Both the position numbers and the translations under genes were made by a program. From assembly GCF_001424165.1 (NCBI RefSeq), contig NZ_LMOJ01000002.1, positions 62,001-126,000 on the forward strand: 64,000 nt of DNA. Reading direction: 5' to 3'. Below, piece by piece: positions 28,155-46,055 of the stretch. Numbering within the stretch: the stretch's first letter is position 1; each line of letters starts with the position of its first letter. A model generated the notes under the pieces. That model was given only the letters and a program-made list of their open reading frames with translations. It was not told the DNA's origin and did not search any database. The DNA comes from Massilia sp. Leaf139. Lineage in GTDB: Bacteria > Pseudomonadota > Gammaproteobacteria > Burkholderiales > Burkholderiaceae_D.

Positions 28155-30005
28155 ATGACCAGCTCCCTCCTGCGCGCCACCGCCTGCGCCATTCTCGGCC
28201 TGCACGGCGCCACCGCCTTTGCCTTCGACCCGCTCAGCTATGCCAATGTGGAACAGGTCAAAACGCGCGCCCTGCACCTCGACCTGAAAGCCGATTTCAA
28301 GAAGAAGACGCTGGCCGGCCACGCCGAACTGACGCTCGACTGGCTCGACAAGGACGCGCGCCGCCTCGTGCTCGACACGCGCGAACTGGCCATCTCGAAG
28401 ATCGAAGCCCAGGACGCGCGCGGCCGCTGGACGCCGGTGCACTACACGCTGGCCCCGTTCGACAAGGAGAAGGGCCAGGCCCTGCGCATCGACCTGGCGG
28501 CGCAGGCGCCGAAGGTGCGCATCCACTACCGCACCGCGCCCACCGCCAGTGCCCTGCAATGGCTGACGCCCGCGCAGACCCTGTCGGGCAAGCGTCCCTT
28601 CATGTTCAGCCAGTCGCAGTCGATCAACGCCCGTTCCTGGGCGCCGGTGCAGGACACGCCCGCGGTGCGCTTCACCTACACGGCCCGCATCGACGCGCCG
28701 GAAGGCCTGCGCGTCGTGATGAGCGCCGATAACGACCCCAAGGCGACGGGGAAGGGAGGCTGGAAGTTCAGCATGCCGCAGCCGATTCCTTCGTACCTGC
28801 TGGCGATCGGCATCGGCGAACTGGAGGCACGTACGCTGGGCGGACGCACCGGCGTCTACGCCGAACCGAAACGGATCGAGGCCGCCGCCTACGAACTGGC
28901 CGACACCGAGAAGATGGTCGCCGCCGCCGAATCGCTCTACGGCCCGTATCGCTGGGGACGCTACGACATGCTGGTGCTGCCGCCTTCGTTCCCGATCGGC
29001 GGCATGGAAAATCCGCGCCTGACCTTCCTGACGCCGACCATGATCGCGGGCGACCGCAGCCTGGTCGACCTGATCGCCCACGAACTGGCGCACAGCTGGT
29101 CGGGCAACCTGGTTACCAACGCCTCGTGGAAGCACTGGTGGCTGAACGAAGGTTTTACGACCTACGTGACGACGCGCATCCTCGAAAAGCTGTATGGCGA
29201 AGAAGTCGCCACCATGAACCTGCAGCTCGAGCAGGAAGAGGCGATCGCCTCGCTGGCGGAGATCTCGAAAGAGAAGCAGGCGCTGCTCACGCGCGACCCG
29301 GATACCTCGTCCGCCACCTACACCAGCGAAGACCTGGCCTACCCGAAGGGCGCCTGGCTGCTGCGCACCCTGGAGCAGCGCGCCGGCCGCGCCGTGTTCG
29401 ATCCCTTCCTGCGCGGCTGGTTCGACGGCCATGCCTTCCAGAGCGTGACGACCGAACAGTTCGTCGCCTACCTGCGCACCAATCTGCTGGCGAAGCACCC
29501 GCAGGTGATGAGCGAGGCCGAACTCGACGAGTGGCTGTACGGCCCCGGCATTCCGGCCGGCGCCAAGTACGCAAGCTCGCAGCGCCTGGTGGCGCTCGAT
29601 GCGACGACCGCCGCCTGGCTGAAGGGCACGCTGCCGACCGCGCAGCTCGACACCAAAGGCTGGAGCGCGCTCGAGTGGATGAAGTTTTTGAACGACATCG
29701 ACAACAAGGCCGACGCCGCCCGATTAAAAGAGCTCGACGCCGCCTTCGGCCTGGCCAAGACCGGCAACAACGAAGTCGCCTTCCGCTTCTACCGCGCGGC
29801 CGTGCACGCCGGCTACCGCGCCGTGCGCCCGCAGCTGCAGGCTTTCCTGATGAGCGTCGGCCGCCAGAAGTTCGTGGTGCCGCTGTATGCGGCGCTGCGC
29901 GCGAATGCGGAGGATCGTGCCTGGGCCGAAAACGTCTACAAAACCGCGCGCGAGCGCTATCACCCGGAAACGCAGGGTAGCGTCGACCGCGCGCTGACGA
30001 AATAA
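28155..30005 (+). CDS. M1-family metallopeptidase (leukotriene A4 hydrolase-like aminopeptidase)
   Basis: This zinc aminopeptidase of 616 aa begins with a signal peptide (SSLLRATACAILGLHGATAFA), so it is exported. The exopeptidase motif GGMENPRLTF and the zinc motif HELAHSW (about 309-315) with the second ligand in NEGFTTYV are complete. The C-terminal helical domain of the LTA4H/cold-active aminopeptidase type is present (about 470-610). It removes N-terminal residues from peptides. The next gene, a serine hydrolase, begins about 60 bp after its stop on the same strand. Confidence 0.94.
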   Translation: MTSSLLRATACAILGLHGATAFAFDPLSYANVEQVKTRALHLDLKADFKKKTLAGHAELTLDWLDKDARRLVLDTRELAISKIEAQDARGRWTPVHYTLAPFDKEKGQALRIDLAAQAPKVRIHYRTAPTASALQWLTPAQTLSGKRPFMFSQSQSINARSWAPVQDTPAVRFTYTARIDAPEGLRVVMSADNDPKATGKGGWKFSMPQPIPSYLLAIGIGELEARTLGGRTGVYAEPKRIEAAAYELADTEKMVAAAESLYGPYRWGRYDMLVLPPSFPIGGMENPRLTFLTPTMIAGDRSLVDLIAHELAHSWSGNLVTNASWKHWWLNEGFTTYVTTRILEKLYGEEVATMNLQLEQEEAIASLAEISKEKQALLTRDPDTSSATYTSEDLAYPKGAWLLRTLEQRAGRAVFDPFLRGWFDGHAFQSVTTEQFVAYLRTNLLAKHPQVMSEAELDEWLYGPGIPAGAKYASSQRLVALDATTAAWLKGTLPTAQLDTKGWSALEWMKFLNDIDNKADAARLKELDAAFGLAKTGNNEVAFRFYRAAVHAGYRAVRPQLQAFLMSVGRQKFVVPLYAALRANAEDRAWAENVYKTARERYHPETQGSVDRALTK

Positions 30006-30067
30006 GCAGAAAAGTAAGCAGATGAGCCAAGGGCCGGGAGACGGCCCGTTTAACAAGGACTAGAAGA

Positions 30068-31702
30068 GTGCAACCCATGAACCGCATTGCAGCCGCGATC
30101 CTGATCGCGTTTTCCGCCCTCGGCGCCCACGCCATCGCGCAGACGACCGCAGCGCCGGCGGCGTCGGCCGTCGCCCCGGCCTACGACCTCGAACAGGACG
30201 TCACCCGCGTGATGAAAGCCTTCGACGTGCCCGGCATTGCGATCGCCGTCGTCAAGGATGGACAAGTCATCGCCGCGCGCGGCTTCGGCGTCCGCAAGCT
30301 CGGCGAGCCGGCCAAGGTCGACGGCCAGACCCTGTTCGAGATCGCCTCCAACTCGAAAGCGTTTACGGCCGCCGCGCTGGCGATGCTGGTCGACGAGGGC
30401 AAGCTGAAATGGGACGACCCGGTGGTCAAACACCTGCCGGACTTCCAGATGTACGACGCCTACGTGACGCGCGAAATGACGGTGCGCGACCTGCTGACCC
30501 ACCGCAGCGGCCTGGGCCTCGGGGCGGGCGATTTGCTGTGGTGGCCGACGACGAACTTCAGCACCGACGAGATCATCGAGCGCCTGCGCTATGTAAAACC
30601 GGCGACCAGCTTCCGCAACAGCTATGCCTACGACAACCTGCTGTATATCGTGGCCGGCAAGATCATCGCCCGGAAGTCCGGTAAAACCTGGGGCGACACG
30701 GTGCGCGAGCGCATCCTGAAGCCCGTCGGCATGAATACGACCACCACCAGCCTGGCCGAAAACGCCGGCAACCCGAACGCCTCCAACGCGCACAGCAAGA
30801 TCAACGACAAGATCGCCGCCGTGAAGTCCATGCCGGTCGATAACGCGGTCGGTGCGGTCGGCATCAATACCAATGCCGAGGACATCGCCAAGTGGATGAA
30901 GGTGCTGCTCGACGGCGGCCGTATCCAGGGTGCCAAGGGCGCGGACGGCAAGGAGCTGCGCCTGTGGAGCGAGGCGCAGTCGCGCGAGATGTGGACGGCG
31001 CAGACGCCGATGAAGATCAGCCAGCCGAAAGGCCCGCTGGCGGCGGCGCGTCCGAACTTCTACGCCTACGGCCTGGGCTTCCAGCTGCGCGACTACAAGG
31101 GCCAGCTGGTCGCCATGCACGGCGGCGCGCTGCAGGGCTTCTATTCGCGCGTGCTGCTGGTGCCGGAATCGAAGCTGGGCGTGGCCATCCTCACCAATGC
31201 GGAAAGCGGCGGCTCCCTGAATGCCCTGCAATACCGCCTGCTCGACCAGTACATGACGGGCAGTGCGCCGACCGACTGGATCAAGCTGATCGCCGACGAC
31301 GAAGACCGCAGGCACAGCGAGGAACTGGCGCGCCTGAAGAAGACCTCGACCACGCGCGTCGCTGCCTCGAAGCCCTCGCTGGCGCTGGCGTCCTACGAAG
31401 GCCAGTACACCGATCCGTGGTATGGCGCCATGACCATCAAGCGCGAGGGCAAGAAGATGATCCTGTCGTTTACGCGCACGCCGGATCTCACCGGCGAGAT
31501 GGAGCACTTCCAGCACGACACCTTCATCGTGCGCTGGAAGGAGCGTAACTTCAACGCCGACGCCTACGTCACCTTCGCGCTGGATCACGAAGGCGCTATC
31601 GAGCATGTGAAGATGAAGGCGGTGTCGACCGAGACCGACTTCAGCTACGACTTCCACGATTTGCTGTTCACGCCGGTGAAACCGGCGAAGGCGAAGCTGT
31701 AA
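30068..31702 (+). CDS. Serine hydrolase, beta-lactamase class C / penicillin-binding protein-like, with DUF3471 tail
   Basis: This exported 544-aa serine hydrolase has a signal peptide (ILIAFSALGAHAIAQ) and a beta-lactamase-fold domain (about 45-385) with the nucleophile motif SNSK in FEIASNSKAFTAA and the YxN motif in SYAYDNLLY. A C-terminal DUF3471-type domain (about 430-535) has YEGQYTDPWYGAMTI. Such proteins are esterases or D-amino-acid/peptide hydrolases more often than true beta-lactamases. GTG 30068 has AAGGA 8 bp upstream; ATG 30077 is an alternative three codons in. A clean terminator follows. Confidence 0.9.
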   Translation: MQPMNRIAAAILIAFSALGAHAIAQTTAAPAASAVAPAYDLEQDVTRVMKAFDVPGIAIAVVKDGQVIAARGFGVRKLGEPAKVDGQTLFEIASNSKAFTAAALAMLVDEGKLKWDDPVVKHLPDFQMYDAYVTREMTVRDLLTHRSGLGLGAGDLLWWPTTNFSTDEIIERLRYVKPATSFRNSYAYDNLLYIVAGKIIARKSGKTWGDTVRERILKPVGMNTTTTSLAENAGNPNASNAHSKINDKIAAVKSMPVDNAVGAVGINTNAEDIAKWMKVLLDGGRIQGAKGADGKELRLWSEAQSREMWTAQTPMKISQPKGPLAAARPNFYAYGLGFQLRDYKGQLVAMHGGALQGFYSRVLLVPESKLGVAILTNAESGGSLNALQYRLLDQYMTGSAPTDWIKLIADDEDRRHSEELARLKKTSTTRVAASKPSLALASYEGQYTDPWYGAMTIKREGKKMILSFTRTPDLTGEMEHFQHDTFIVRWKERNFNADAYVTFALDHEGAIEHVKMKAVSTETDFSYDFHDLLFTPVKPAKAKL

Positions 31703-32862: not shown

Positions 32863-32992
32863 CTATTCAAAATCATTGGTTGCTGCTAATGTTTAACGGT
32901 TTGCCATTCAGGTAATGCGCGATGGCACCACGAGTTCACCACATACATATGCGGCTGCGCCGCCCCCGAAGAAGCGGAATTCAGGAGACAGC

Positions 32993-34630
32993 ATGGAACG
33001 TCGTACTTTCCTCAACATCAGCACGCTGGCCTTTGGCTCGATGCTCATTCCCGTCGCCGGCCGTGCGATCGCGGCCGAAGAACTGCTCAGCCCCATGGCC
33101 GTCGCCGCCAAGAAGGCCCTGGCCGACACCGCGCTGAACGCCGCCACCAAGGCCGGCGCTTCCTACTGCGACGTGCGCATCGGGCGCTATCTGAACCAGT
33201 TCGTTACCACCCGTGACCTGAACGTCGAGAACGTCGTCAATACCGAATCGGCCGGCGTCGGCGTGCGCGTGATCTGCAACGGCGCCTATGGCTTTGCCGC
33301 CACCTCGGACATGACCCCGGACGGCATCGCCGGCGCGGCGCGCCAGGCAGTGGCCATCGCCAAGGCCAACGCCAAGCTGCAGACCGAGCCGGTGCGTCTT
33401 GCACCGGTCAAGGGCGTGGGCGAGGTGAGCTGGGCGACGCCGTACAAGAAAGACTGGCGCGCGGTGCCGATCAAGGAAAAGGCCGAGCTGCTGATCGCGG
33501 CGAACAAGGCCGGCATGGACAGCGGCGCCAACTTCATGCAGTCGATGCTGTTCCAAGTGAACCAGCAGAAGTATTTCGCGTCGACCGACGGCTCCTACAT
33601 CGACCAGGATCTGCACCGCCTGTGGGCGCCGTTCAGCGCCACCGCGGTCGACAAGGCCAGCGGCAAGTTCCGTTCGAGGCAAGGCCTGGGTGCGCCGGTC
33701 GGCATGGGCTACGAATACCTGGACGCGCGTCCGGAGCACAAGGTCAAGGCCGCCGGCGGCGTCGCCACGCTCTACACGAATTCGTACGACATGATCGAGG
33801 ACGCGCGCGCCGCCGGCCGCGACGCCAAGCGTAAGCTCACCGCGAAATCGGTCACCCCGGGCAAGTACGACCTGATGCTCTCGCCGGAACACCTGTTCCT
33901 GACCATCCATGAATCGGTCGGCCACCCGACGGAACTCGACCGCGTGCTCGGCTACGAAGCCAACTACGCCGGCACCAGCTTCGCCACCCTCGACAAGTGG
34001 GAAACCAAGAAATTCAAGTACGGCTCCGAGATCGTCAACCTGTACGCCGACAAGACCACCCCTGGTTCGCTGGGCGCCGTCGCCTACGACGACGAAGGCG
34101 TGCGCTGCAAGCAGTGGGACATCATCAAGGACGGCATCCTGGTCAACTACCAGGCCACGCGCGACCAGGCCCACATCATCGGCGAGAAGGAATCGCACGG
34201 CTGCTCGTATGCGGACTCGTGGAGCAACGTCCAGTTCCAGCGCATGCCGAACGTGTCGCTGGCGGCCGGTAAAAAGAAGATGAGCCCGGACGACATGGTC
34301 AAGGGCATCAAGAAGGGCATCTACATCGTCGGCGACGGTTCGTTCTCGATCGACCAGCAGCGCTACAACTTCCAGTTCGGCGGCCAGCTGTTCTACGAAA
34401 TCAAGGACGGCAAGATCGGGCAAATGCTGGAAGACGTCGCCTACCAGGCCAACACCCAGGAATTCTGGACGGCCTGCGCCGGCATCTGCGACGAGCGCGA
34501 CTGGCGCATGGGCGGCTCCTTCTTCGACGGCAAGGGCCAGCCGCCGCAGATCAGCATCGTCTCGCACGGTTCCTCGACCGCGCGTTTCAACGGCATCAAC
34601 GTGATCAACACCGCCCGCAAGATCGGCTAA
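32993..34630 (+). CDS. TldD-like metallopeptidase subunit with Tat signal (copy 1)
   Basis: TldD is the zinc-bearing subunit of the TldD/TldE peptidase, which in E. coli matures microcin B17 and degrades unfolded peptides. This 545-aa protein has the HExxxH zinc motif HESVGHPTE (His306-His311) and the C-terminal TldD/PmbA region (IIGEKESHGCSYADSW, CDERDWRMGGSFFDGKGQ). The N-terminus MERRTFLNIST plus a hydrophobic stretch ending AIAAEE is a twin-arginine (Tat) signal, whereas E. coli TldD is cytoplasmic and about 480 aa. ATG 32993 follows AGGAGA by 5 bp. It is the first gene of a ten-gene operon, 8 bp before its TldE partner. Confidence 0.9.
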   Translation: MERRTFLNISTLAFGSMLIPVAGRAIAAEELLSPMAVAAKKALADTALNAATKAGASYCDVRIGRYLNQFVTTRDLNVENVVNTESAGVGVRVICNGAYGFAATSDMTPDGIAGAARQAVAIAKANAKLQTEPVRLAPVKGVGEVSWATPYKKDWRAVPIKEKAELLIAANKAGMDSGANFMQSMLFQVNQQKYFASTDGSYIDQDLHRLWAPFSATAVDKASGKFRSRQGLGAPVGMGYEYLDARPEHKVKAAGGVATLYTNSYDMIEDARAAGRDAKRKLTAKSVTPGKYDLMLSPEHLFLTIHESVGHPTELDRVLGYEANYAGTSFATLDKWETKKFKYGSEIVNLYADKTTPGSLGAVAYDDEGVRCKQWDIIKDGILVNYQATRDQAHIIGEKESHGCSYADSWSNVQFQRMPNVSLAAGKKKMSPDDMVKGIKKGIYIVGDGSFSIDQQRYNFQFGGQLFYEIKDGKIGQMLEDVAYQANTQEFWTACAGICDERDWRMGGSFFDGKGQPPQISIVSHGSSTARFNGINVINTARKIG

Positions 34631-34638
34631 GGAAGACC

Positions 34639-35973
34639 ATGACCATCCTGACCCAGGAACAAACCAAACGCATCTGCGACCGCGTGCTGTCGCTCTCGAA
34701 GGCCGACGAATGCATCGTCAGCATCGGTGGTGAACGCAACGGCAACATCCGCTTCGCGCGCAATGCCGTCTCGACCGCCGGCCTGACCGACGACACCACG
34801 CTCACCGTGCGCGTCGCCTTCGGCAAGCGCCAGGGCACGGCCACCATCAACGAGTTCGACGACAAATCGCTGGAAAAGGCCGTGCGCCGCGCCGAAGACC
34901 TGGCGCGCCTGGCCCCGGAAAATCCGGAGTTCATGCCGACCGTTTCGAAGCAGCAGTACAAGGCCTCGAACACCTTCGTCCAAAAGACCGCCGACATCGA
35001 CCCCGAGATCCGCGCCCAGGCCGCCGCCTACGCGATCGAGGCCTGCCGCAAGAAGGGCCTGGTCAGCGCCGGCTTCCTGACCGACACCACCTCCTTCCAG
35101 ACGGTGGCCAATTCGAACGGCGTGTTCGGCCACCAGGCTTCGACCTCGCTCGACTTCACCTGCACCATCCGCACCGAAGACGGCCGCGGTTCGGGCTGGG
35201 TGCGCCGCTCGGCGCGCGACCTGGCGCGCTTCGACCCGCGTGAAGCGGCCGATGTCGCCATCGAAAAGGCGCTGCGTTCGGTCGATGCCAAGGCGCTGGA
35301 GCCGGGCCGCTATACCGTCATCCTGGAACCGGCCGCCACCAGCGACCTGATGAACTTCATGATGAACGGTTTCAATGCGCGCAACACCGACGAGGGCCGC
35401 AGCTTCCTGTCGAAGAAGGGTGGCCTGAACCGCGTCGGCGACAAGCTGTTCGACCAGCAGGTCAACATCTGGTCGGATCCCTGGGATCCGCTGGTGCCGG
35501 TGCTGCCATGGGATCAGAACATGCTGCCGCGCGAGCGCCAGCAGTGGATCAAGGACGGCCGCGTGGCCGACCTCGAGTACTCGCTGTACTGGGCCAAGCA
35601 GAAGAACAAGCGCGCCATCGGCAGCGCCGGCAACTACATCATGGGCGGCAGCGACAAGAGCCTCGACGAGCTGATCGCCAACACCAAGAAGGGCGTGCTG
35701 GTCACCCGTACCTGGTACATCCGCATGGTCGACCCGCAATCGGTGGCGCTGACCGGCCTGACCCGCGACGGCACCTTCTATGTCGAGAACGGCAAGGTCA
35801 AGCACCCCATTAAAAACTTCCGCTTCAACGAGAGCCCGGTCTCGATGCTCAACAACATCGAGGAAATCGGCAAGTCGGTGGTGCTCGGCGGCGACGAAGG
35901 CCCGAACCCGATGGTGGTGCCGGCGATGAAGGTACGCGACTTCAATTTCACCTCGCTGTCGGACGCGGTTTGA
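34639..35973 (+). CDS. TldE/PmbA-like subunit (copy 1)
   Basis: This 444-aa protein is the partner subunit of TldD. It has the N-terminal TldD/PmbA fold (RFARNAVSTAG), VANSNGVFGHQAS and a C-terminal TRTWYIRMVDPQSVALTGLTRDGTFYVENGKVKHPIKNFRFNES-type region typical of PmbA/TldE. No HExxxH is present, as expected for the non-catalytic subunit. It has no signal peptide, although its presumed partner has a Tat signal, so it may be carried out with TldD as a folded complex or act in the cytoplasm. It sits 8 bp after copy-1 tldD. Confidence 0.9.
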   Translation: MTILTQEQTKRICDRVLSLSKADECIVSIGGERNGNIRFARNAVSTAGLTDDTTLTVRVAFGKRQGTATINEFDDKSLEKAVRRAEDLARLAPENPEFMPTVSKQQYKASNTFVQKTADIDPEIRAQAAAYAIEACRKKGLVSAGFLTDTTSFQTVANSNGVFGHQASTSLDFTCTIRTEDGRGSGWVRRSARDLARFDPREAADVAIEKALRSVDAKALEPGRYTVILEPAATSDLMNFMMNGFNARNTDEGRSFLSKKGGLNRVGDKLFDQQVNIWSDPWDPLVPVLPWDQNMLPRERQQWIKDGRVADLEYSLYWAKQKNKRAIGSAGNYIMGGSDKSLDELIANTKKGVLVTRTWYIRMVDPQSVALTGLTRDGTFYVENGKVKHPIKNFRFNESPVSMLNNIEEIGKSVVLGGDEGPNPMVVPAMKVRDFNFTSLSDAV

Positions 35974-36054
35974 TGATTGTGCGGTGGACGGCGGCGCCGT
36001 CCACCGTACGCGGAAACGCCGCGTGACGATCGACACCGCGGCAACGGAGACACA

Positions 36055-37692
36055 ATGGAACGACGTACCTTCTTAAAAATCGGCGCCGGCACGGCGGGCG
36101 CCATGGTGGTGCCGGTGTTCGGCAACGCGATCGCGGCCGAAGACCTGCTCAGCCCCATGGCGCTGAGCTTCAAGAAATCGCTGGCCGACGCCGCCCTGAA
36201 CGCGGCCACCAAGGCCGGCGCGTCCTACTGCGACGTGCGTATCGGCCGCTACCTGAACCAGTTCATCACGACGCGCGACCTGAACGTCGAGAACATCACG
36301 AATACCGAATCGACCGGCGTGGGCGTGCGCGTCATCGCCGGCGGCGCCTACGGCTTCGCCGCCACCAACAGCATGAACCCGGACGCCGTGGCCGCCGCCG
36401 CGCGCCAGGCCGTGGCGATTGCGAAAGCCAACGCCAAGCTGCAGCTGGAACCCGTGCAGCTGGCGCCGGTGAAGGGCGTGGGCGAAGTCGCCTGGGCCAC
36501 GCCGATCAAGAAGGACTGGCGCGCGGTGCCGGTGAAAGACAAGGCCGAGATGCTGATCGCCGCTAACAAGGCCGGCCTGGAAGCGGGCGCCAGCTTCATG
36601 ACGGCGAACCTTTTCCAGATCAACCAGCAAAAATATTTTGCCTCGACCGACGGCTCCTACATCGACCAGGACATCCACCGTCTGTGGGCGCCGATCAACG
36701 CGACTGCCGTCGACAAGAACACGGGCAAGTTCCGCTCACGCGCCGGCCTCGGTTCGCCGGTCAGCATGGGCTACGAATACTTCGACGTGGCAGGCGGCGG
36801 CAAGGTGCGCGCCGCCGGCGGCGTCACCACGCTGTACACGAAATCCTACGACGTCGTGGAAGACGCGCGCCTGGCCGGCAAGCAGGCGCGCGAGAAGCTG
36901 TCGGCGAAATCCGTCGAGCCGGGCAAGTACGACCTGGTGCTGGCGCCGGAACACCTGTTCTTGACCATCCACGAAGCCGTCGGCCACCCGACGGAGCTCG
37001 ACCGCGTGCTCGGCTACGAAGCCAACTACGCCGGCACCAGCTTCGCCACGCTCGACAAATGGCAGAGCAAGAACTTCAAGTTCGGCTCGGAGCGCGTGAA
37101 CTTCATCGCCGACCGCACCAGCCCGGGTTCGCTCGGCCTGATCGGCTACGACGACGAAGGCGTGCGCGCCAAGGAGTGGAACATCATCAAGGACGGCGTC
37201 CTGGTGAACTACCAGGCCACGCGCGACCAGGCCCACATCATCGGCGAGAAGGAATCGCACGGCTGCTCGTACGCCGATTCGTGGAGCAGCGTGCAGTTCC
37301 AGCGCATGCCGAACGTCTCGCTCGCAGCGGGCAAGGCGCGCCTGACGCCTGACGAGATGGTCAAGGACGTCAAGAAGGGCATCTATATCGTCGGCCGCGG
37401 TTCCTACTCGATCGATCAGCAGCGCTACAACTTCCAGTTCGGCGGCACGCTGTTCTACGAGATCAAGAACGGCAAGATCACCAATCCGCTGGAAGACGTC
37501 GCTTACCAGTCGAACACCCAGGAATTCTGGAATGCCTGCAGCGCCATCTGCGACGAGCGCGATTGGCGCATGGGCGGCTCCTTCTTCGACGGCAAGGGCC
37601 AGCCAAGCCAGGTCAGCGCGGTCTCGCATGGTTCGAGCACGACGCGCTTCAACGGCATCAACGTGATTAACACTGCCCGCAAGATCGCTTAA
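36055..37692 (+). CDS. TldD-like metallopeptidase subunit with Tat signal (copy 2)
   Basis: This paralogue of the first TldD has the same length (545 aa) and long identical stretches, such as the region around GHPTELDRVLGYEANYAGTS. The zinc motif is HEAVGHPTE at the same position (His306). The Tat signal is even closer to consensus, ERRTFLKIG, followed by a hydrophobic segment ending AIAAED. ATG 36055 follows CGGAGA. It is separated from the first tldE by 81 bp, the largest gap among the tld genes, which may hold an internal promoter or processing site. It differs from copy 1 mainly in surface segments (for example, near residues 245-290). Confidence 0.9.
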   Translation: MERRTFLKIGAGTAGAMVVPVFGNAIAAEDLLSPMALSFKKSLADAALNAATKAGASYCDVRIGRYLNQFITTRDLNVENITNTESTGVGVRVIAGGAYGFAATNSMNPDAVAAAARQAVAIAKANAKLQLEPVQLAPVKGVGEVAWATPIKKDWRAVPVKDKAEMLIAANKAGLEAGASFMTANLFQINQQKYFASTDGSYIDQDIHRLWAPINATAVDKNTGKFRSRAGLGSPVSMGYEYFDVAGGGKVRAAGGVTTLYTKSYDVVEDARLAGKQAREKLSAKSVEPGKYDLVLAPEHLFLTIHEAVGHPTELDRVLGYEANYAGTSFATLDKWQSKNFKFGSERVNFIADRTSPGSLGLIGYDDEGVRAKEWNIIKDGVLVNYQATRDQAHIIGEKESHGCSYADSWSSVQFQRMPNVSLAAGKARLTPDEMVKDVKKGIYIVGRGSYSIDQQRYNFQFGGTLFYEIKNGKITNPLEDVAYQSNTQEFWNACSAICDERDWRMGGSFFDGKGQPSQVSAVSHGSSTTRFNGINVINTARKIA

Positions 37693-37711: not shown

Positions 37712-39049
37712 ATGAAACAGCTGAACAAGGAAGAAGCACAACGCATCTGCGAGCGCGTCATCAAGTTCTCGAAGGCGGACGAATGCAGCGTCGACATCAG
37801 CGGCAAGCGCGAGGGCAACGTGCGCTTCGCCCGCAACAGCATTTCGACCGCGGGCTCGAACGAAGACATGCAGCTGACCGTGCAGGTCGCCTTCGGTAAA
37901 AAATCCGGCATCGCCCAGCTCAACGAATTCGACGACAAGTCGCTGGAAAAGGCCGTGCGCCGCGCCGAGGAACTGGCGCGCCTGGCGCCGGAGAATCCGG
38001 AATTCATGCCGGCCGTCGGCAAGCAGGACTATAAGGCCTCGCCGACCTTCGCCCGCGCCACCGCCGAGATCGACCCGGAATACCGCGCGCAAGTGGCGGC
38101 CTACAGCATCGAAGCGGCGAAGAAGGCCGGCCTGGTGACGGCCGGCTTCTTCAACGACGGCAAGCGTTTCAATGCCACCGCCAATTCGAACGGCGTGTTC
38201 GGCTTCCAGGAAATGACGGATCTGGCCTACACCTGCACCGTGCGCACCGAAGACGGGCGCGGCTCGGGCTGGGTCACGCGTTCGGCCACCGACGCCAGCC
38301 GTTTCGACGCGCGCGAGGCGGCCGCCGTCGCCATTGAAAAGGCGCTGCGTTCGGTCGAAGCCAAGGCCCTGGAACCGGGCCGCTACACGGTGATCCTGGA
38401 GCCGGCGGCGACCTCCGAGGTGCTGGGCAATATGTTCAGCTCCTTCAGCGCGCGCGACGCCGACGAGGGGCGCAGCTTCCTCACCAAGAAGGGCGGCAAG
38501 AACCGCCTGGGCGACAAGCTGTTCGACGAGCAGATCAACGTCTGGGCCGATCCGTGGAACACGGACGTGCCGGTGCTGCCCTGGGACGGCCAATCGGGCC
38601 TGGCGCGCCAGCGCACCGACATCATCAAGAATGGCCGCATCGCCTCGCTCGACTATTCGCGCTACTGGGCGCAGAAGCAGGGCAAGGTCGCCACGGCCGG
38701 CCACGGCAACATGATCATGGCGGGCGGCACCAAGTCGCTGGAAGAGCTGATCGCCTCGACGAAAAAAGGCGTGGTCGTGACCCGCACCTGGTACATCCGC
38801 ATGGTCGATCCGCAGTCGCTGCTGCTGACGGGCCTGACGCGCGACGGCACCTTCTATGTCGAGAACGGCAAGATCAAGTACCCGATCAAGAATTTCCGCT
38901 TCAACGAGAGCCCGGTCACGATCCTGAACAATGTCGAGGAACTCGGCGTGGCGCAGGTGATCGGCGGCGACGAGGTGCCGTACCAGATGGTGCTGCCGTC
39001 GATGAAGGTGCGCGACTTTAACTTCACCTCCTTGTCGGATGCCGTGTAA
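37712..39049 (+). CDS. TldE/PmbA-like subunit (copy 2)
   Basis: This 445-aa paralogue of the first TldE has matching landmarks (VRFARNSISTAG, TANSNGVFGFQEM, RTWYIRMVDPQSLLLTGLTRDG) and no HExxxH and no signal peptide. It lies 19 bp after the second tldD and 13 bp before the DUF4159 gene. The presence of two tldD-tldE pairs in order shows duplication of the pair as a unit. The two pairs may form separate complexes with different substrates, or mixed complexes. Confidence 0.9.
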   Translation: MKQLNKEEAQRICERVIKFSKADECSVDISGKREGNVRFARNSISTAGSNEDMQLTVQVAFGKKSGIAQLNEFDDKSLEKAVRRAEELARLAPENPEFMPAVGKQDYKASPTFARATAEIDPEYRAQVAAYSIEAAKKAGLVTAGFFNDGKRFNATANSNGVFGFQEMTDLAYTCTVRTEDGRGSGWVTRSATDASRFDAREAAAVAIEKALRSVEAKALEPGRYTVILEPAATSEVLGNMFSSFSARDADEGRSFLTKKGGKNRLGDKLFDEQINVWADPWNTDVPVLPWDGQSGLARQRTDIIKNGRIASLDYSRYWAQKQGKVATAGHGNMIMAGGTKSLEELIASTKKGVVVTRTWYIRMVDPQSLLLTGLTRDGTFYVENGKIKYPIKNFRFNESPVTILNNVEELGVAQVIGGDEVPYQMVLPSMKVRDFNFTSLSDAV

Positions 39050-39062
39050 AGAAGTTCGCTAG

Positions 39063-39683
39063 ATGGCCCGTTACGATTTTTACTTCACGCGCCTGCTGTA
39101 CGAGTCGGGCGACTGGGATGTGGACGTGCGCATGCCCAGCAACGTGCTCAATTCGCTGGTCGAGTACACCACCCTGAAGGTGGATCCGGCCGAGCGGATG
39201 ATCGCGCTGTCCGACCCGAAGGTGCTCGAAGCGCCGTTCTGCTACCTGGCCGGACACAAGCTGGTGCAGTTCACGCCCGCCGAGCGCAAGAACTTCGAGC
39301 GCTACGTGCGCGGCGGCGGCTTCGTGTTCGTCGACGACTGCAACCACGACGTCGACGGGCTGTTCGCCAAATCCTTCGAAGCCGAAATGGCGAAGATTTT
39401 CGGCGCCTCGGCGCTGCGCAAGATCCCGAACAACCACCCGGTGTATTCGAGCTTCTTCAAGTTCGACGGCCCGCCGAACACCTCGGTGGAGCTCAACGGC
39501 TGGGGCGACGACCTGGTGCACGAGTACCTGAAGGCGATCGAGATCGGCGGGCGAGTGCGGGTGCTGTACTCGAACAAGGATTACGGCTGCGAGTGGGATT
39601 ACGACTTTCGGAATAAACGGTTTCTCGCGGTGGACAATACCCGCTTTGCGGTGAACATCATTCAATATGCGTTGGGAGCATGA
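39063..39683 (+). CDS. DUF4159 domain protein
   Basis: This 206-aa protein matches the DUF4159 family, predicted to have a class-I glutamine-amidotransferase-like flavodoxin fold: LTFYDFYFTR-type start (ARYDFYFTRLLYESGDW), FERYVRGGGFVFVDDCNHD, and C-terminal NKDYGCEWDYDFRNKRFLAVDNTRFAVNIIQYAL. There is no signal peptide and no clear catalytic triad. DUF4159 is known to co-occur with MoxR ATPases, DUF58 and BatA-like proteins. It lies 13 bp after the second tldE and touches the MoxR gene, linking the tld and moxR halves of the operon. Confidence 0.88.
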   Translation: MARYDFYFTRLLYESGDWDVDVRMPSNVLNSLVEYTTLKVDPAERMIALSDPKVLEAPFCYLAGHKLVQFTPAERKNFERYVRGGGFVFVDDCNHDVDGLFAKSFEAEMAKIFGASALRKIPNNHPVYSSFFKFDGPPNTSVELNGWGDDLVHEYLKAIEIGGRVRVLYSNKDYGCEWDYDFRNKRFLAVDNTRFAVNIIQYALGA

Positions 39684-39684
39684 A

Positions 39685-40689
<1,005 letters not shown>

Positions 40690-40695
40690 TCGCTA

Positions 40696-41595
40696 ATGGC
40701 ACTGGCCAGTTCCGCGCTGATCGCGCATACGACCGACCTCGACCTCGTCATCCGCCACGTGCTGGCGGGACTGGGGCAGGGCGTGCACGCCGGCCGCGAG
40801 CGCGGCTCCGGTGTCGAATTCTCCGAGTACCGCGCCTATGCGCCGGGCGACGAGTGGCGCCGCGTCGACTGGAAACTGCTGGCGCGCGCCGACCGGTATT
40901 ACGTGCGCGAGGCCGAGCGCGACAGCCACGTGGCGGTCTGGCTGCTGCTGGACGCCAGCGCCTCGATGGCGGAACCGAGCCGCAGCATTCCGGGCCTGGA
41001 CAAGCTGGGCTATGCGCGCACGCTGCTGGCCTGTGTCGCCGCGATCGCGCAGCGGCAAGGCGACGCCTTCGGGCTTGCGGTCTTGTCCGGCGGCCGGGTG
41101 CAGTTCGTGCCGGCCGCGCGCGGCCCGCGCCAGCTGCAGCGGGTGCTGGCCAAACTGACGCAAGTGCAAGCCGAGGGCGAGTTGCCCGACGCCGCCGTCC
41201 TCAAAAGCGGCTTGCGCTTCGCCGGCTCTCCTTCCCTGATTTTCGCCGCCACCGATTTTCTCGACTGGCCCTCGCCGCTGTCGGAAGCGCTGGTGCGCCT
41301 GCGCCACATGCGTCACGACGTGCGCGCCGCCTGCCTGCAGACCGCGGCCGAGTGCGAGGGCAGTTTCGATAGCGCCCCGGCCTACCGCGACCCGGAACGG
41401 GACGCTGCCGTGTTCCGCTTCGGCGCCGACCTGCGCGAGGGCTATCTGCGCAAGCGCGCACAGCATTTCGATGGCGTGAACGCCGCCATGCGCGCCAACG
41501 ACGTGCCGCTGGTGAACGCGCGCATCGAGGGGGCGCCGGGCGAGATCCTGCGCCAGTGGCTGCGCCCACGGGGCGGTAATGGAGGGCGCCGATGA
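40696..41595 (+). CDS. DUF58 / vWA-like protein, MoxR partner
   Basis: This 299-aa DUF58 protein has the signature FSEYRAYAPGDEWRRVDWKLLARA and a vWA-like domain with an intact MIDAS DxSxS motif in LLLDASASMAEP. It has no transmembrane segment, unlike many DUF58 proteins. Family knowledge: MoxR and DUF58 genes are paired across bacteria, and the vWA protein is the likely target or adaptor of the ATPase. It lies 6 bp after moxR and overlaps the next gene by 4 bp. Confidence 0.92.
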   Translation: MALASSALIAHTTDLDLVIRHVLAGLGQGVHAGRERGSGVEFSEYRAYAPGDEWRRVDWKLLARADRYYVREAERDSHVAVWLLLDASASMAEPSRSIPGLDKLGYARTLLACVAAIAQRQGDAFGLAVLSGGRVQFVPAARGPRQLQRVLAKLTQVQAEGELPDAAVLKSGLRFAGSPSLIFAATDFLDWPSPLSEALVRLRHMRHDVRAACLQTAAECEGSFDSAPAYRDPERDAAVFRFGADLREGYLRKRAQHFDGVNAAMRANDVPLVNARIEGAPGEILRQWLRPRGGNGGRR

Positions 41596-42575
41596 CCAGC
41601 CTGTGGTGGCTCGCCTTGCCGACCCTGCTGCTGCCGATCTGGTGGCACCGCAAGAAGCGCGTGCAGGTGAAGGCCGAACCGCTGGCCAGCGCGCGCTTCC
41701 TGCCGCGTACCGAACCGCGGCAAATGCGCGTCTGGCGCTGGTCGGATATCCTGCTATTGATCGTGCGCTGCCTGCTGCTGGTCTGTGCGATCGCCTGGCT
41801 GGCCGATCCGGTCTTCCCCTGGCGCGGCGACACGGTCGTGGTGGCGCAGGGGACGGATGCGCGCTGGGTCGAGCGCGAAATAAAAGCCGCCGGCTACGTC
41901 GAGGCGGCGCGCCTGCCGCTGCCGGCGCACGAGGCGCTGGCCTGGATCGGCGCCCACGAACGCGAATTCAAGCCGGAGGCGCGCCTCCTGGTGCTGGGCG
42001 ATATCCCGATGCCGGCCGGCCTGCCGGCCTTCCGCCGGCCGGTCGCGTTGCGTACGCTGGCGGCGCCCGTGCCGCGCTTGGAAGCGCGCGTGGCCATCGT
42101 CAGCGCGCGCGCGCCGGAATGGCGGCGCATGTTCGCGGCGCTCGACGGCCCGCTGCGCGTCGTGCTCGAGAACACGCCGGGGCCGAAGACCGAACTGATC
42201 GTCTGGGACATGCCGGACGCGCCGCCGGCCGGCATGCGCGCGCCGCTGTGGTGGACGACCGATACCGGCGCGTTTACGGAACTGGCGCAATCGAAGGCGG
42301 TGGGCGGCATCCGCTATGCCGACGGCGCGCGCGGGCGGGTCTGGGCCTCGAACGCCTGGCCGCCGGCCGACCCGGGCGCGGCGCGCGCGCTGCTGGAGAC
42401 CTGGCGCGAACTGCATTACGCACCGGTGCCCTATACGGCGCCGCCGCAGGCCTTTGCCCCTAGCGCGGCTGCCGCGCGCACCTACGCCAGCGGCGCCCTG
42501 CGCGACTTCCTGATGTGGGCGCTGGTCGCCTTGTTCGCTATCGAGAGGATCCTGACCCATGCACGGCGACGCTGA
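41592..42575 (+). CDS. BatA-like membrane protein (aerotolerance N-terminal double-TM domain)
   Basis: This 327-aa protein has the N-terminal double transmembrane domain typical of BatA-related proteins (TSLWWLALPTLLLPIWWHRKKR, then ILLLIVRCLLLVCAIAWLADP), a mixed alpha/beta soluble part, and a last membrane helix (DFLMWALVALFAIERIL). The soluble region faces the periplasm by this topology. No MIDAS motif is seen, so it is only the anchoring half of a BatA-type protein. ATGA overlaps on the 5' side and a 17-bp overlap with the next gene indicate tight translational coupling. Confidence 0.82.
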   Translation: MTSLWWLALPTLLLPIWWHRKKRVQVKAEPLASARFLPRTEPRQMRVWRWSDILLLIVRCLLLVCAIAWLADPVFPWRGDTVVVAQGTDARWVEREIKAAGYVEAARLPLPAHEALAWIGAHEREFKPEARLLVLGDIPMPAGLPAFRRPVALRTLAAPVPRLEARVAIVSARAPEWRRMFAALDGPLRVVLENTPGPKTELIVWDMPDAPPAGMRAPLWWTTDTGAFTELAQSKAVGGIRYADGARGRVWASNAWPPADPGAARALLETWRELHYAPVPYTAPPQAFAPSAAAARTYASGALRDFLMWALVALFAIERILTHARRR

Positions 42576-44532
42576 CATCCTGCGCCGCCTATGGCGTGCG
42601 GCCCTGCTGCGGCGCCTGCCGCTGTGGCTACTCGGCACGCTGCCCTGGCTGGCGCTGCGCCTGCTGCCGGGCCTGCTGGCCTGGGTCGCCTGGTGCATGT
42701 GGGATGCGGCGCGCCTGCGCCGGCAGGTCGCGCACGGCTGGAGCGGCTGGCTGGACGCGGCCGTGCCGAGCCTGGAAGACAGCAGCGCGCTGCTGATCGA
42801 AGCGGACACGCCGCTGGCGCGCCTGCAGCGCCAGCGCCTGCTGGCCCGGATCGACGCCGCGCTCGACAAGCCGGCGATGCGACGCGCCGTGTATCCGCAC
42901 ATCGGCACCGGCTTCATGTGGCTGTTGCCCTGGCTGGCGCTGGCAGCCGTGGTCTGGTTCTTCGGCCAGCGGCCGGCCGTATCGGCGCCTGCCCCTGTGC
43001 CTGTCAGCGCGGCGGCCAAAGCGGCGGCCGTGCCGCAATTGACGGTCACCGCGACGCCGCCGGCCTATACCGGCGCCGCCACCAGCAGCGGCGCGCCGCG
43101 CGACATCAGCCTGCCCGAAGGCGGCAGCCTCGCCTGGTGCCTGAAAAATCCGGAGGCGGGCGCGACGACGCTGGAACTGAGCGACGGCCGTACGCTGAAG
43201 GTGGGCGAACGATGCGCGACCCTGGTCGCCACCGAATCCCTGTTCTGGCGCTGGCGCGGCGCCCGGTATACCGTCAAGGTGACGCCGGATGCGCCGCCGA
43301 CGATCACCATCGCCCAGCCGGTTCAGATGATCCAGGAACTCAAACCGGACGCCACGTCGGCCGCCATGGCCCTGTCGGTGCAGGACGACTACCGGGTGCA
43401 GCGCGCCACCCTGCACCTGACCCTGGCGCGCGGCAGCGGAGAGAACATCAAGTTCACCGACCGCGAAATGCCGCTGCCGGCCTCGAACAATCCGCGCCAG
43501 CGCAACTGGGCGAAATCCTGGACGCTTGCCGAACTGGGCATGGAGCCGGGCGACGAGCTGTATTTCTTCGTGCGCGCGGCCGACAACGCCACGCGTGCCC
43601 ACACGGTGCAGTCGCCCACCTACACGTTGCGCCTGCCGGCGCCGGAAGTGGAAGACAGCGAGCAGACGGCGGCCATGCCGATGCTGGTGAAACCGCAAAG
43701 CCTGCGCAGCCAGCGCCAGATCATCATCGATACCGAGCAGCTGATCGCCGACATGCGCGCCACCCGCATGAGCGCGGAGACGGTGCGCGAACGCAGCGAA
43801 GCGATCGCACTCGACCAGGGCCAACTGCGGCGCCGCTACGGCCAGTTCCTGGGCGAGGAATCGAACCTGTTCGGCGGCGAAGAGCACGACGACGACCACG
43901 CAGGGGAGGCCGGCAAGATGGACGTGCTGCACCAGTTCGGCCACGCTCACGACGAGGCGGAGAACGCGACCCTGTACGACGAGGAGACCAAGAAGGTGCT
44001 GCGCCGCGCCCTGGTGGCGATGTGGGACGCCGAGAAAGCGCTGCGCGCCATCTCGCCGAAAACGGCGCTCGCGCCGGAATACAAGGCGCTGGCGGCGATC
44101 AAGGAATTGCAGCAGGCCGACCGCATCTACCTGCACAAGACGGCCTTCGTGCCGCCGCCGATCCGGGAAGAACTGCGCATGACGGGCGATGTCGTCGGCG
44201 CGGTCAGCTATACGCGCGAGCAGGGCGGTGCGAACGAAGCGATCCCGAGCGACTTGCGCGCGCTGGTGGCGGCGCTCTCGAACGAGGGCGCGCTGCCGGC
44301 CTTATGGACGCGCACGGCGCACGACTGGGTGCGCGAGCGTCTGAAGGACGACGAGCAGCGCCTGGCGGCCCAGCGCGCGATCCAGGACGTGCAGGACGGC
44401 TGCCTGCGCTGCCGCCCGTCCCTGCGCGCCTGGCTGAGGGCCGGCGTCGAGAACGCGCCGGTGCTGCTGCAGGCCCAGCCCGTCACCGCTACGCCGTTTA
44501 CACGCGCCTGGATCGATGGAGGCGCCAAATGA
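42559..44532 (+). CDS. DUF4175-like membrane protein
   Basis: This 657-aa protein has N-terminal membrane helices (WLLGTLPWLALRLLPGLLAWVAW and FMWLLPWLALAAVVWFFG) and a long soluble region. It includes an Ig-like beta part (TVTATPPAYTGAA...DDYRVQRATLHLTL) and a charged helical C-terminal part with a His/Asp-rich stretch (EEHDDDHAGEAGKMD). This layout matches DUF4175 proteins, often encoded with MoxR/DUF58/BatA genes. It probably spans or borders the periplasm. It ends in an ATGA overlap with the next gene. The His/Asp stretch could bind metal (inference). Confidence 0.8.
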   Translation: MHGDADILRRLWRAALLRRLPLWLLGTLPWLALRLLPGLLAWVAWCMWDAARLRRQVAHGWSGWLDAAVPSLEDSSALLIEADTPLARLQRQRLLARIDAALDKPAMRRAVYPHIGTGFMWLLPWLALAAVVWFFGQRPAVSAPAPVPVSAAAKAAAVPQLTVTATPPAYTGAATSSGAPRDISLPEGGSLAWCLKNPEAGATTLELSDGRTLKVGERCATLVATESLFWRWRGARYTVKVTPDAPPTITIAQPVQMIQELKPDATSAAMALSVQDDYRVQRATLHLTLARGSGENIKFTDREMPLPASNNPRQRNWAKSWTLAELGMEPGDELYFFVRAADNATRAHTVQSPTYTLRLPAPEVEDSEQTAAMPMLVKPQSLRSQRQIIIDTEQLIADMRATRMSAETVRERSEAIALDQGQLRRRYGQFLGEESNLFGGEEHDDDHAGEAGKMDVLHQFGHAHDEAENATLYDEETKKVLRRALVAMWDAEKALRAISPKTALAPEYKALAAIKELQQADRIYLHKTAFVPPPIREELRMTGDVVGAVSYTREQGGANEAIPSDLRALVAALSNEGALPALWTRTAHDWVRERLKDDEQRLAAQRAIQDVQDGCLRCRPSLRAWLRAGVENAPVLLQAQPVTATPFTRAWIDGGAK

Positions 44533-46055
44533 TCATTGCGATCAGCCTGATCGGCGCGGCCAGCGTGCTGCTGTATCTGTGGCGGCGGCGCTTCTTCGAC
44601 GCGCTGCTGGCACTGGTCGCCACCGCGGCGCTGGCGCTACTGGCGGCGGATCTGCGCATGCCGGGCGAGTCTGGCGCCACGCTGGCGATCGATGCCCGTA
44701 ACCCGCCGGCCTCGCTCGCAGGCGTGCGCAGCCTGAGCCTGAACGGCGACGGCCTGCGCGCCGCCCAGTGGCAGGATCTGCCGGCGCGTCCGCTGGCCTG
44801 GACGCCGCCCGCGACGCCCGTGCTGCGCCTGGAATTTCCGCGCCAGCTGGCGCTCGGGCGCCTGTTCGCGCTGACCGTACGCCGCAGCGGCGCGGCGCCG
44901 GCGCGCCTGCAGCTGCTGGCCGAGAACGGACAATTGCTGGCCGAGGCGCGCGGCGCCGGCGACCTGACGGTGTCCTGGCTGCCGCCGCTGGCCGAGACAC
45001 TGCTTTTAAAGGCGCGCCTGCTGGACGGCGAGAACAGGTTAGTGGCCGAAGGGCCGGTGCCGGTGCTGGTCGCCGAGACCCGGCCGCTGGCGGTACGCGG
45101 CCGCTTCAGCGCGCCCTCCTTCGACGTGCGTGTGCTGAACGATTTGTTGACGCAAAGCCGGGCCTTGGTCGACTGGCAGGTCACGCTCGGTAAGACCGTT
45201 ACCCGCAGCGAGAGCGCGCGCGAAAAAATGGAGAAGCCGGATCTGCTGGTGGTCGACGCCGCCTGGTTCGAACGCGCGAACGCGCCGGCGCGCGCGGCCC
45301 TGCTGGAGCAGGTCGGGCAGGGCGCCGCCTTGTTGGTGCTGGGCGCAAGCGCAAATGACGCCGGCGTCTGGTCGCGCAGCCTGCAACTGCCGCTGCAGGC
45401 GCAGCCGGCCGACAAGCTGACCGGCGGGCCGCTGCCGCTGCCGGTGGCGCCGCTGGCGCCGGCCACACGCCAGGCCGGCCCCTGGCAGGGCAACGAAGCG
45501 GGTCTCTGGGCCCGCCAGTGGAATAATGGGCGGATCGGCTGGCTGGGCGCCGCCGACTGGCACCGTCTGGCGATCAGCGAGCCGCGCGCGCTGGCCCTGT
45601 GGTGGCAGGGTATGCTCGACGCGGTGCGCGTCGAACGGACGGAAGACATTCAATGGCTGGCGCCGCGCGAGATGCCGCTGCCGGGCCAGCGCCTGGAAGT
45701 TTGCGCGCTTGGCGTACGCGGCAAGCTGGGCTTCCCGGCGCTCGGGTTGACGCTCGACTGGCAGCGCCGCCCGGATCGGGTGGACGCGTCCTGCGTCGCC
45801 GTCTGGCCGCGCGCGCCGGGCTGGCTACAGATGGAAACCGGAGGATCCAAACCGGTACGCAGCCAGGTGTATGTGTACGCGCCTGAGGACTGGCCGCTGT
45901 GGCAGGCGGCCGAACGGCGCGACGCCAGCGCGCGCTATGCGGCGCGCACGCCGGCGCCGGCGGCAGCGGCCAGCCGGCAGGCCTTGCCTCAATGGCCGTT
46001 CGGGGTTCTGTTCGCGCTGGCGATGCTGGGCTTGTGGTGGCGCGAGCGGCGCTAA
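44529..46055 (+). CDS. Membrane protein with amidotransferase-like fold, last gene of the tld/moxR operon
   Basis: This 508-aa protein begins with two membrane helices (IIAISLIGAASVLLYLWRRR, FFDALLALVATAALALLA), continues with an extracytoplasmic region, has a class-I glutamine-amidotransferase-like stretch (PSFDVRVLNDLLTQSRALVDWQV, then ALLEQVGQGAALLVLGASA) without a catalytic cysteine, and ends with a single helix (WPFGVLFALAMLGLWWRERR). Similar proteins end MoxR/DUF58/BatA operons. ATG 44529 overlaps the previous stop; a much longer frame reading back to 42591 is the shifted frame of DUF4175. No U-rich terminator follows. Confidence 0.78.
   Translation: MIIAISLIGAASVLLYLWRRRFFDALLALVATAALALLAADLRMPGESGATLAIDARNPPASLAGVRSLSLNGDGLRAAQWQDLPARPLAWTPPATPVLRLEFPRQLALGRLFALTVRRSGAAPARLQLLAENGQLLAEARGAGDLTVSWLPPLAETLLLKARLLDGENRLVAEGPVPVLVAETRPLAVRGRFSAPSFDVRVLNDLLTQSRALVDWQVTLGKTVTRSESAREKMEKPDLLVVDAAWFERANAPARAALLEQVGQGAALLVLGASANDAGVWSRSLQLPLQAQPADKLTGGPLPLPVAPLAPATRQAGPWQGNEAGLWARQWNNGRIGWLGAADWHRLAISEPRALALWWQGMLDAVRVERTEDIQWLAPREMPLPGQRLEVCALGVRGKLGFPALGLTLDWQRRPDRVDASCVAVWPRAPGWLQMETGGSKPVRSQVYVYAPEDWPLWQAAERRDASARYAARTPAPAAAASRQALPQWPFGVLFALAMLGLWWRERR

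Follow-up and report, generated by a model that had tools for sequence, protein, structure and literature searches.

A TldD/TldE peptidase locus of Massilia with a conserved twin-arginine-type signal on TldD and none on TldE: predicted export of the pair to the cell envelope

Background

The locus described here raises the question of whether a TldD/TldE peptidase can work outside the cytoplasm. The E. coli pair is cytoplasmic, and TldD/E is generally treated as a cytoplasmic system. The analysed DNA is a stretch of 64,000 nucleotides from Massilia sp. Leaf139 (contig NZ_LMOJ01000002.1, positions 62,001 to 126,000), and “the window” below means this whole stretch. The host genome belongs to Oxalobacteraceae, and its nearest named records are those of Massilia. 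The window carries four genes of the PmbA/TldD family in tandem, TldD1-TldE1-TldD2-TldE2, separated by 8, 81 and 19 bases. Both TldD proteins begin like substrates of the twin-arginine translocation (Tat) pathway, and neither TldE does.

About 60% of bacterial genomes carry TldD/E genes, a figure cited in PMC5810440. In E. coli, TldD is active only together with TldE: TldD by itself did not act on its substrate, and the homodimer that it forms is unstable (PMC5810440). The TldD/E complex is a hollow sphere with a width of about 65 Å; its active site lies in the interior, to which only unfolded peptides are admitted (PMC5810440). Tat substrates are folded and measure 20-70 Å, and hitchhiking of a signal-less partner is established for HybO/HybC and PaoABC (PMC4273604); signal-less partners carried by Tat are also described in PMC10924467. 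A TldD/TldE heterodimer with a Tat signal would thus fit the pathway both in size and in its use of passengers.

We consider it probable, at about two chances in three, that the locus encodes an envelope TldD/TldE peptidase that is assembled in the cytoplasm and in which TldE is exported as a Tat passenger. TldD would be made with a cleavable twin-arginine signal; its folding, its loading with metal and its pairing with TldE would all take place in the cytoplasm. The heterodimer would then leave by Tat in folded form, TldE being a hitchhiker without a signal. In the periplasm the pair would trim unfolded peptides together with a DUF4159 protein and the membrane products of the MoxR/BatA-type operon that they share, and an aspartate would take the place of the oxidisable cysteine ligand of the zinc. 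An earlier note on this DNA had proposed a periplasmic zinc peptidase of this kind, and its interpretation as a whole is partly supported; the operon, the link to DUF4159 and the change of the metal ligand are points that go beyond it.

Twin-arginine signals of the TldD proteins

The N-terminus of TldD1 (from 32993) is MERRTFLNISTLAFGSMLIPVAGRAIAAEE and that of TldD2 (from 36055) is MERRTFLKIGAGTAGAMVVPVFGNAIAAED, while TldE1 begins MTILTQEQTKRIC and TldE2 begins MKQLNKEEAQRIC. Both TldDs have MERRTFL(N/K), then a hydrophobic stretch, then AIAAE. The features of a Tat substrate are present, i.e., an N-terminal twin-arginine motif, a moderately hydrophobic stretch and an AxA-type site. No twin arginine occurs in the first 35 residues of TldE1 or TldE2, and the best 15-residue hydrophobicity is 1.04 and 0.25 in these proteins versus 1.63 and 1.66 in TldD1 and TldD2.

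The TldD starts, with the ribosome sites AGGAG and CGGAG, are as the earlier note had them. Its claim of Tat-like starts on both TldDs and on neither partner is confirmed by the translations, by hydrophobicity and by the conservation described below. The motif that it named, RRxFLK, fits TldD2, whereas TldD1 has N after RRTFL. In-frame upstream codons at 32915 and 35977 make longer TldD starts formally possible; the chosen starts are favoured because the frames of some relatives open just one codon earlier. With starts as chosen in the analysis, two residues precede the twin arginine in 192 of the 194 relatives treated below as the clade. TatC, the only Tat component covered by the search, was found in the own genome and in all 21 other clade genomes.

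Conservation of the signal

We collected 108 DNA stretches. Besides the window they comprise 80 loci from named relatives, which are the top 80 among 510 stretches encoding a relative, and 27 from other genomes (13 out of a set of 18, and 14 from three order samples). They yielded 202 TldD rows and 179 TldE rows, some genes being read twice from two stretches. The motif rule required RRx[FIVLM] together with a hydrophobic residue, in residues 1-28. By this rule 198 of the 202 TldD rows have the motif and 0 of the 179 TldE rows. Three of the four exceptions (L154, L165, L166) come from short stretches where the open frame begins within the protein and the start could not be placed, and the fourth (L130) lies outside the clade. 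We set these four aside and dropped TldDs of at most 520 and TldEs of at most 425 residues. RRxF[LI] then stands near the N-terminus of all 194 distinct complete clade TldDs and of none of the 175 distinct TldEs. The signal residues, on whose conservation in orthologues the earlier note had staked its proposal, are thus kept.

Residue 5 takes nine amino acids across the 194 TldDs, while both arginines and the phenylalanine are invariant. R3 is encoded by five different codons and R4 by six, which means that the protein and not the DNA is conserved. On this pattern of substitutions, the twin-arginine motif of TldD is judged to be under selection. Only R3, R4, F6 and P20 are invariant among the signal columns of 35 N-termini (34 from the clade and one from Parabacteroides); A25, A27 and A28 are conserved at 94-97%, as expected of a cleavage site. 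The hydrophobicity of clade TldDs is modest, with a mean of 1.65 for the best 15-residue window.

Tat-signal models recognize many of these 35 N-termini at E <= 0.1: TIGR01409 matches 24 (best E about 5e-05) and PF10518 matches 17 (best E about 1e-04). PF10518 matches 0 of 24 TldE N-termini, to which the NCBIfam Tat model was not applied. By chance, amino acid composition would give about 0.02 such motifs in residues 1-28 of a protein. The same rule applied to neighbouring proteins, with script-picked starts that are poor for DUF4159 and perhaps for others, gave 0/93 for MoxR, 0/80 for BatA, 1/90 for DUF58, 1/94 for DUF4159, 4/23 for DUF4175, 0/29 for the M1 peptidase, 0/45 for the serine hydrolase and 0/178 for TldE.

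The metal site

The metal of E. coli TldD is held by His262, His267 and Cys454 (PMC5810440). Both histidines and the catalytic glutamate are kept in 194/194 clade TldDs, and HExxxH is found in 0/175 TldEs. At the position of Cys454 all 194 clade TldDs read FFDGKGQP (once FSDGKGQP), i.e., have Asp512, and the non-clade relatives have CG[KS], with one row (L153) missed by the script. The zinc peptidase of the earlier note therefore stands as regards the intact HExxxH but not as regards the third ligand position, which holds Asp and not Cys. In a first alignment Phe stood opposite Cys454; this assignment was replaced after the motif FFDGKGQP had been read.

The change from Cys to Asp lies on the same branch of the tree as the Tat signal. 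An aspartate at this position in Gemmatimonas, regarded as giving a more thermolysin-like site, was noted in 2017 (PMC5810440); the substitution itself is already known, and its pairing with an export signal is new here. Asp512 may bind the metal and may be an adaptation to the periplasm: a thiolate ligand would be oxidisable there, which would explain the replacement. As a separate observation, C404 and C495 are present in 194/194 clade TldDs and C499 in 186, and they could form a periplasmic disulphide.

Distribution and phylogeny of the clade

Thirteen of 398 genomes of the phylum sample, the own genome included, encode a TldD with 63-100% identity across practically the full length, including the signal, and all 13 have a TldE gene in the locus. 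The next relative in these 398 genomes has 42% identity, and its match begins past the signal. The Tat-TldD was found in 26 of 145 genomes of the own family (two copies each), in 4 of 369 genomes of the class sample and in 7/147, 2/145 and 4/148 genomes of three order samples; the searches scored few candidates per genome (three in the phylum and class samples), so weaker members of the clade may be missed in these counts.

In a quick tree of 83 TldDs with the signal residues removed, a single branch separates 48 Tat rows from all others (Shimodaira-Hasegawa-like approximate likelihood ratio test, SH-aLRT, 95); the program gave a warning about long branches that meet. The nearest group (G187, two relatives and two actinomycetes) has no signal, nor has the closest sister found, which is 45% identical and reads FFCGKGQP. 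The clade is set apart from its sister by three features: the Tat signal, Asp512, and the operon with stand-alone DUF4159, MoxR and BatA-type genes. The Tat label requires two changes in total on this tree, the second one being in Parabacteroides, whose long branch makes its placement unsure.

A script check of 35 non-clade TldDs found 32 without the motif near the start. Two others, L137 and L139, have it ahead of the annotated start and lack a hydrophobic stretch there; the remaining one is that of Parabacteroides. Massilia's own TldD outside the operon is among the signal-less proteins. It has HExxxH and is one of two further family members elsewhere in the same genome, the other being a TldE-like protein; the frames read show no Tat-like start on either.

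The TldD of Parabacteroides distasonis (L138:3314-6167) has a Tat signal ending in the lipobox-like LLGSC and stands beside a signal-less TldE. It is an apparent Tat lipoprotein, and its signal is apparently a separate gain with the same asymmetry between TldD and TldE. This Bacteroidota case is one record, labelled as a plasmid. The signal is thus found on TldD in two separate lineages, and neither the 175 clade TldEs nor the TldE of Parabacteroides has one. An anaerobic sulfatase-maturation gene adjoins the pair in L138.

Fifteen records of a plasmid collection were read around family members. Fourteen of them have a TldD, and a Tat-like signal occurs only in Parabacteroides. The patterns used turned up no relative of P0003 or P0005 (labels of the analysis) on viral contigs. 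On two sphingomonad plasmids (L143:672-7469 and L144:1-10000) a tandem pair of TldD-related genes is accompanied by genes for thioredoxin and M3 peptidase, joined in L144 by those for a TonB receptor and an ABC transporter; these sets resemble a cluster for a peptide natural product. On a plasmid of Pseudomonas aeruginosa (L152:2484-9134), near mercury-resistance genes, a TldD/TldE pair stands together with genes for an ABC transporter and for TonB/ExbB-type proteins.

The gene order within the clade varies. Two Tat-TldDs and one TldE are found in L119, L122, L123, L124, L127, L065, L017, L021, L024, L039, L041, L044 and L076. The order in L119 is TldD-TldE-TldD, and in L128 one TldD lies apart on the other strand.

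DUF4159 and the MoxR/BatA gene run

Downstream of TldE2 the window has genes for DUF4159, MoxR, DUF58, a BatA-like protein, DUF4175 and one more membrane protein; the spacing between neighbours ranges from -17 (an overlap) to 13 bases. We call this gene run an operon on the grounds of spacing and order, from which co-transcription would be expected. The order Tld genes, DUF4159, MoxR holds in 94 of the 108 stretches. The other 14 comprise twelve short ones (about 4.6 kb), L130 outside the clade and L078, a 14-kb stretch in which neither DUF4159 nor MoxR was found.

DUF4159 occurs in 106 of the 398 phylum genomes, in 93 of them in frames of 578-1253 residues and in 13 in frames of 206-299 residues. 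The 13 genomes with the short, stand-alone form are exactly the 13 with a Tat-TldD. The counting odds of this co-occurrence (about 10^-24) are not a probability, since the genomes are related.

Outside Oxalobacteraceae, the stand-alone DUF4159 has a hydrophobic N-terminus after R-x-x-F/C-L in 13/13 genes read (14 rows with one gene twice, from 13 of the 20 clade genomes outside the family). Five of these 13 have a twin arginine, three of the five being from one genus. DUF4159 is probably periplasmic in these relatives; the window protein would either stay inside or be carried out by a partner. Within Oxalobacteraceae the DUF4159 core is found in 77 of 82 loci, and all 77 can start 2-5 residues before the core. 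No paper on DUF4159 was found in the literature searched.

Features of the window

The coordinates are given in Table 1. All three PmbA/TldD domains pass the Pfam gathering cut-offs in all four Tld proteins of the window; TldD1, for example, scores 50.6, 25.6 and 97.5 bits for PF01523, PF19290 and PF19289 against cut-offs of 20.9, 20.9 and 22.

Table 1. Features of the TldD/TldE locus and the downstream gene run (positions in the window)
Feature	Position	Strand	Basis
AGGAG ribosome site of TldD1	32983..32987	+	read directly; 5 nt upstream of start
TldD1, 545 aa, PmbA/TldD family, Tat-type N-terminus	32993..34630	+	Pfam PF19289, PF01523, PF19290 over cut-off; translation
Predicted Tat signal of TldD1, residues 1-28, RRTFL, AIAA	32993..33076	+	sequence and clade conservation
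HESVGH metal-binding motif of TldD1, residues 306-311	33908..33925	+	alignment to E. coli TldD H262, E263, H267
Asp512 of TldD1 (GAC), position of E. coli zinc ligand Cys454	34526..34528	+	FFDGKGQP vs CGK
TldE1, 444 aa, without signal, without HExxxH	34639..35973	+	translation, Pfam, hydrophobicity
CGGAG ribosome site of TldD2	36045..36049	+	read directly; 5 nt upstream of start
TldD2, 545 aa, Tat-type N-terminus, 79% identity to TldD1	36055..37692	+	translation, Pfam, alignment
Predicted Tat signal of TldD2, residues 1-28	36055..36138	+	PF10518 E = 0.0031 and conservation
HEAVGH metal-binding motif of TldD2	36970..36987	+	alignment, coordinates checked
Asp512 of TldD2 (GAC)	37588..37590	+	motif reading, coordinates checked
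TldE2, 445 aa, without signal	37712..39049	+	translation, Pfam, hydrophobicity
Stand-alone DUF4159 protein, 206 aa, without signal	39063..39683	+	Pfam, N-terminus read
MoxR-type AAA+ ATPase (AAA_3)	39667..40689	+	Pfam
DUF58 protein	40696..41595	+	Pfam
BatA-like protein; BatA E = 6.2e-05, 23.8 bits, under the 25.9 cut-off	41592..42575	+	Pfam
DUF4175 protein	42559..44532	+	Pfam
Final gene of the run, probably for a membrane protein, two N-terminal hydrophobic segments	44529..46055	+	hydrophobicity

No precursor-peptide gene is seen in the 81 nt between TldE1 and TldD2, which hold no ATG-started open reading frame (ORF) of at least 12 residues; seven ORFs of at least 20 residues lie in the 352 nt ahead of TldD1 (an ORF count only). 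Just upstream of the operon (28155-31702) lie genes for an M1 aminopeptidase with a leukotriene-A4-hydrolase-type C-terminal domain and for a beta-lactamase-family protein. Farther away (59268-60533), an HlyD-type membrane-fusion protein has KRRTLL ahead of its hydrophobic N-terminal stretch, which is probably an ordinary membrane anchor.

Discussion

The best reading of these data is that of a family member in a different compartment with a changed metal ligand. Several points weigh against it. The Tat models barely see the signals of the window itself: TldD2 matches PF10518 weakly (E = 0.0031, 17.8 bits, cut-off 22.7), and TldD1 has no match at E <= 0.1 to PF10518 or TIGR01409. The case for a Tat signal therefore rests on conservation; in our judgement, short Tat-signal models often miss true signals. 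Comparison of 48 clade with 5 sister rows gives 15 columns with a fixed difference (three of them versus gaps); the change from Cys to Asp is among these 15, and the count does not single it out. The Tat-TldD of Parabacteroides keeps the cysteine, so Asp is not needed for export. An AlphaFold2 model of TldD2 built from 33 close sequences was unusable (mean predicted local distance difference test score, pLDDT, 32). Co-export is not strictly required, since a TldD homodimer from Sulfolobus is reported to be active in the absence of TldE (cited in PMC5810440). Of the 94 stretches extending to DUF4159, 13 were found to have two TldD genes and a single TldE. No signal was found on DUF4159 in the 77/77 Oxalobacteraceae loci read, which fits a simple periplasmic story poorly unless the protein is carried.

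The last point can be accommodated if TldD of Oxalobacteraceae carries two passengers, TldE and DUF4159, in a three-part complex, after a re-tooling on one branch that brought together the Tat signal, the carboxylate ligand and an operon with an exported DUF4159 and MoxR/BatA. We regard this extension as doubtful.

Export of TldD by Tat with TldE staying behind is the strongest alternative to co-export, although an unlikely one. TldD would then act in the periplasm alone or as a homodimer, and TldE could be, e.g., an inhibitor or a chaperone before export. The motif missing from every clade TldE, the reported activity of the Sulfolobus homodimer and the stretches with two TldDs per TldE agree with this alternative. 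Evidence against it comes from E. coli TldD, which is inactive on its own and unstable as a homodimer, from the TldE gene present in the locus in 13/13 clade genomes of the phylum sample and from the same pairing in the Bacteroidota record.

It is considerably less probable that the N-terminus is a Sec-type (general secretory) signal or an uncleaved anchor in which the twin arginine is unused for Tat. The window signals do score below or outside the Tat models, and the neighbouring DUF4159, with twin Arg in only 5/13, could be a Sec substrate. However, the arginines and the phenylalanine are invariant beside a residue 5 that takes nine amino acids, and this, the modest hydrophobicity and the alanines resembling a cleavage site argue against a Sec signal or anchor. 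The least probable explanation is no export at all, the N-terminal segment being a folded part or a chance motif of a cytoplasmic protein: it agrees with the cytoplasmic action of the E. coli pair and with the passages of two TldD/E papers, where an exported form is not described, but it leaves the confinement of conservation to R3, R4, F6 and P20, the lack of a comparable signal in 34 of the 35 non-clade TldDs checked and the signal-like start of DUF4159 in relatives without a reason.

The literature searched yielded no description of a TldD exported by Tat; a 2022 review of TldD/TldE lies outside that search and may mention one. TldD/PmbA and twin-arginine are named together in the literature searched only in separate places of one paper, as far as the available part of its text goes. 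A paper on Tat substrates of P. aeruginosa does not name TldD or PmbA in its main text. If co-export of the pair is correct, an exported branch with a changed ligand puts TldD/E in a second compartment, Tat hitchhiking gains a peptidase example beyond redox enzymes, and the MoxR/DUF58/BatA/DUF4159 operons become tied to a known biochemical activity.

Comparison with known systems

The clade shares with E. coli TldD/TldE (PmbA; MEROPS M103, PMC5810440) the three PmbA/TldD Pfam domains, HExxxH in TldD only and an inactive TldE. It differs from E. coli TldD in its Tat signal, in Asp at the position of Cys454 and in overall sequence (about 24-26% identity), and the two genes are adjacent and lie within a MoxR/BatA run. 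The window TldDs score 64.7 and 88.8 bits for the equivalog of the E. coli type (NCBIfam NF008006), whose cut-off is 513. Gemmatimonas TldD likewise has Asp for Cys454; it is known here by its description in PMC5810440, the Discussion of which does not mention export.

The Parabacteroides distasonis pair resembles the clade in having a Tat signal on TldD only, with a signal-less TldE adjoining. It differs in that its TldD stands apart in the tree, has a lipobox, keeps the cysteine and is 41.6% identical to E. coli TldD, and no DUF4159 or MoxR is among the annotated neighbours shown. Finally, the Tat hitchhikers HybO/HybC and PaoABC (PMC4273604) have, like the clade, one signal-bearing subunit and one or more partners without a signal. 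Those complexes are redox enzymes bearing cofactors, whereas TldD/TldE of the clade would be a peptidase exported as a pair.

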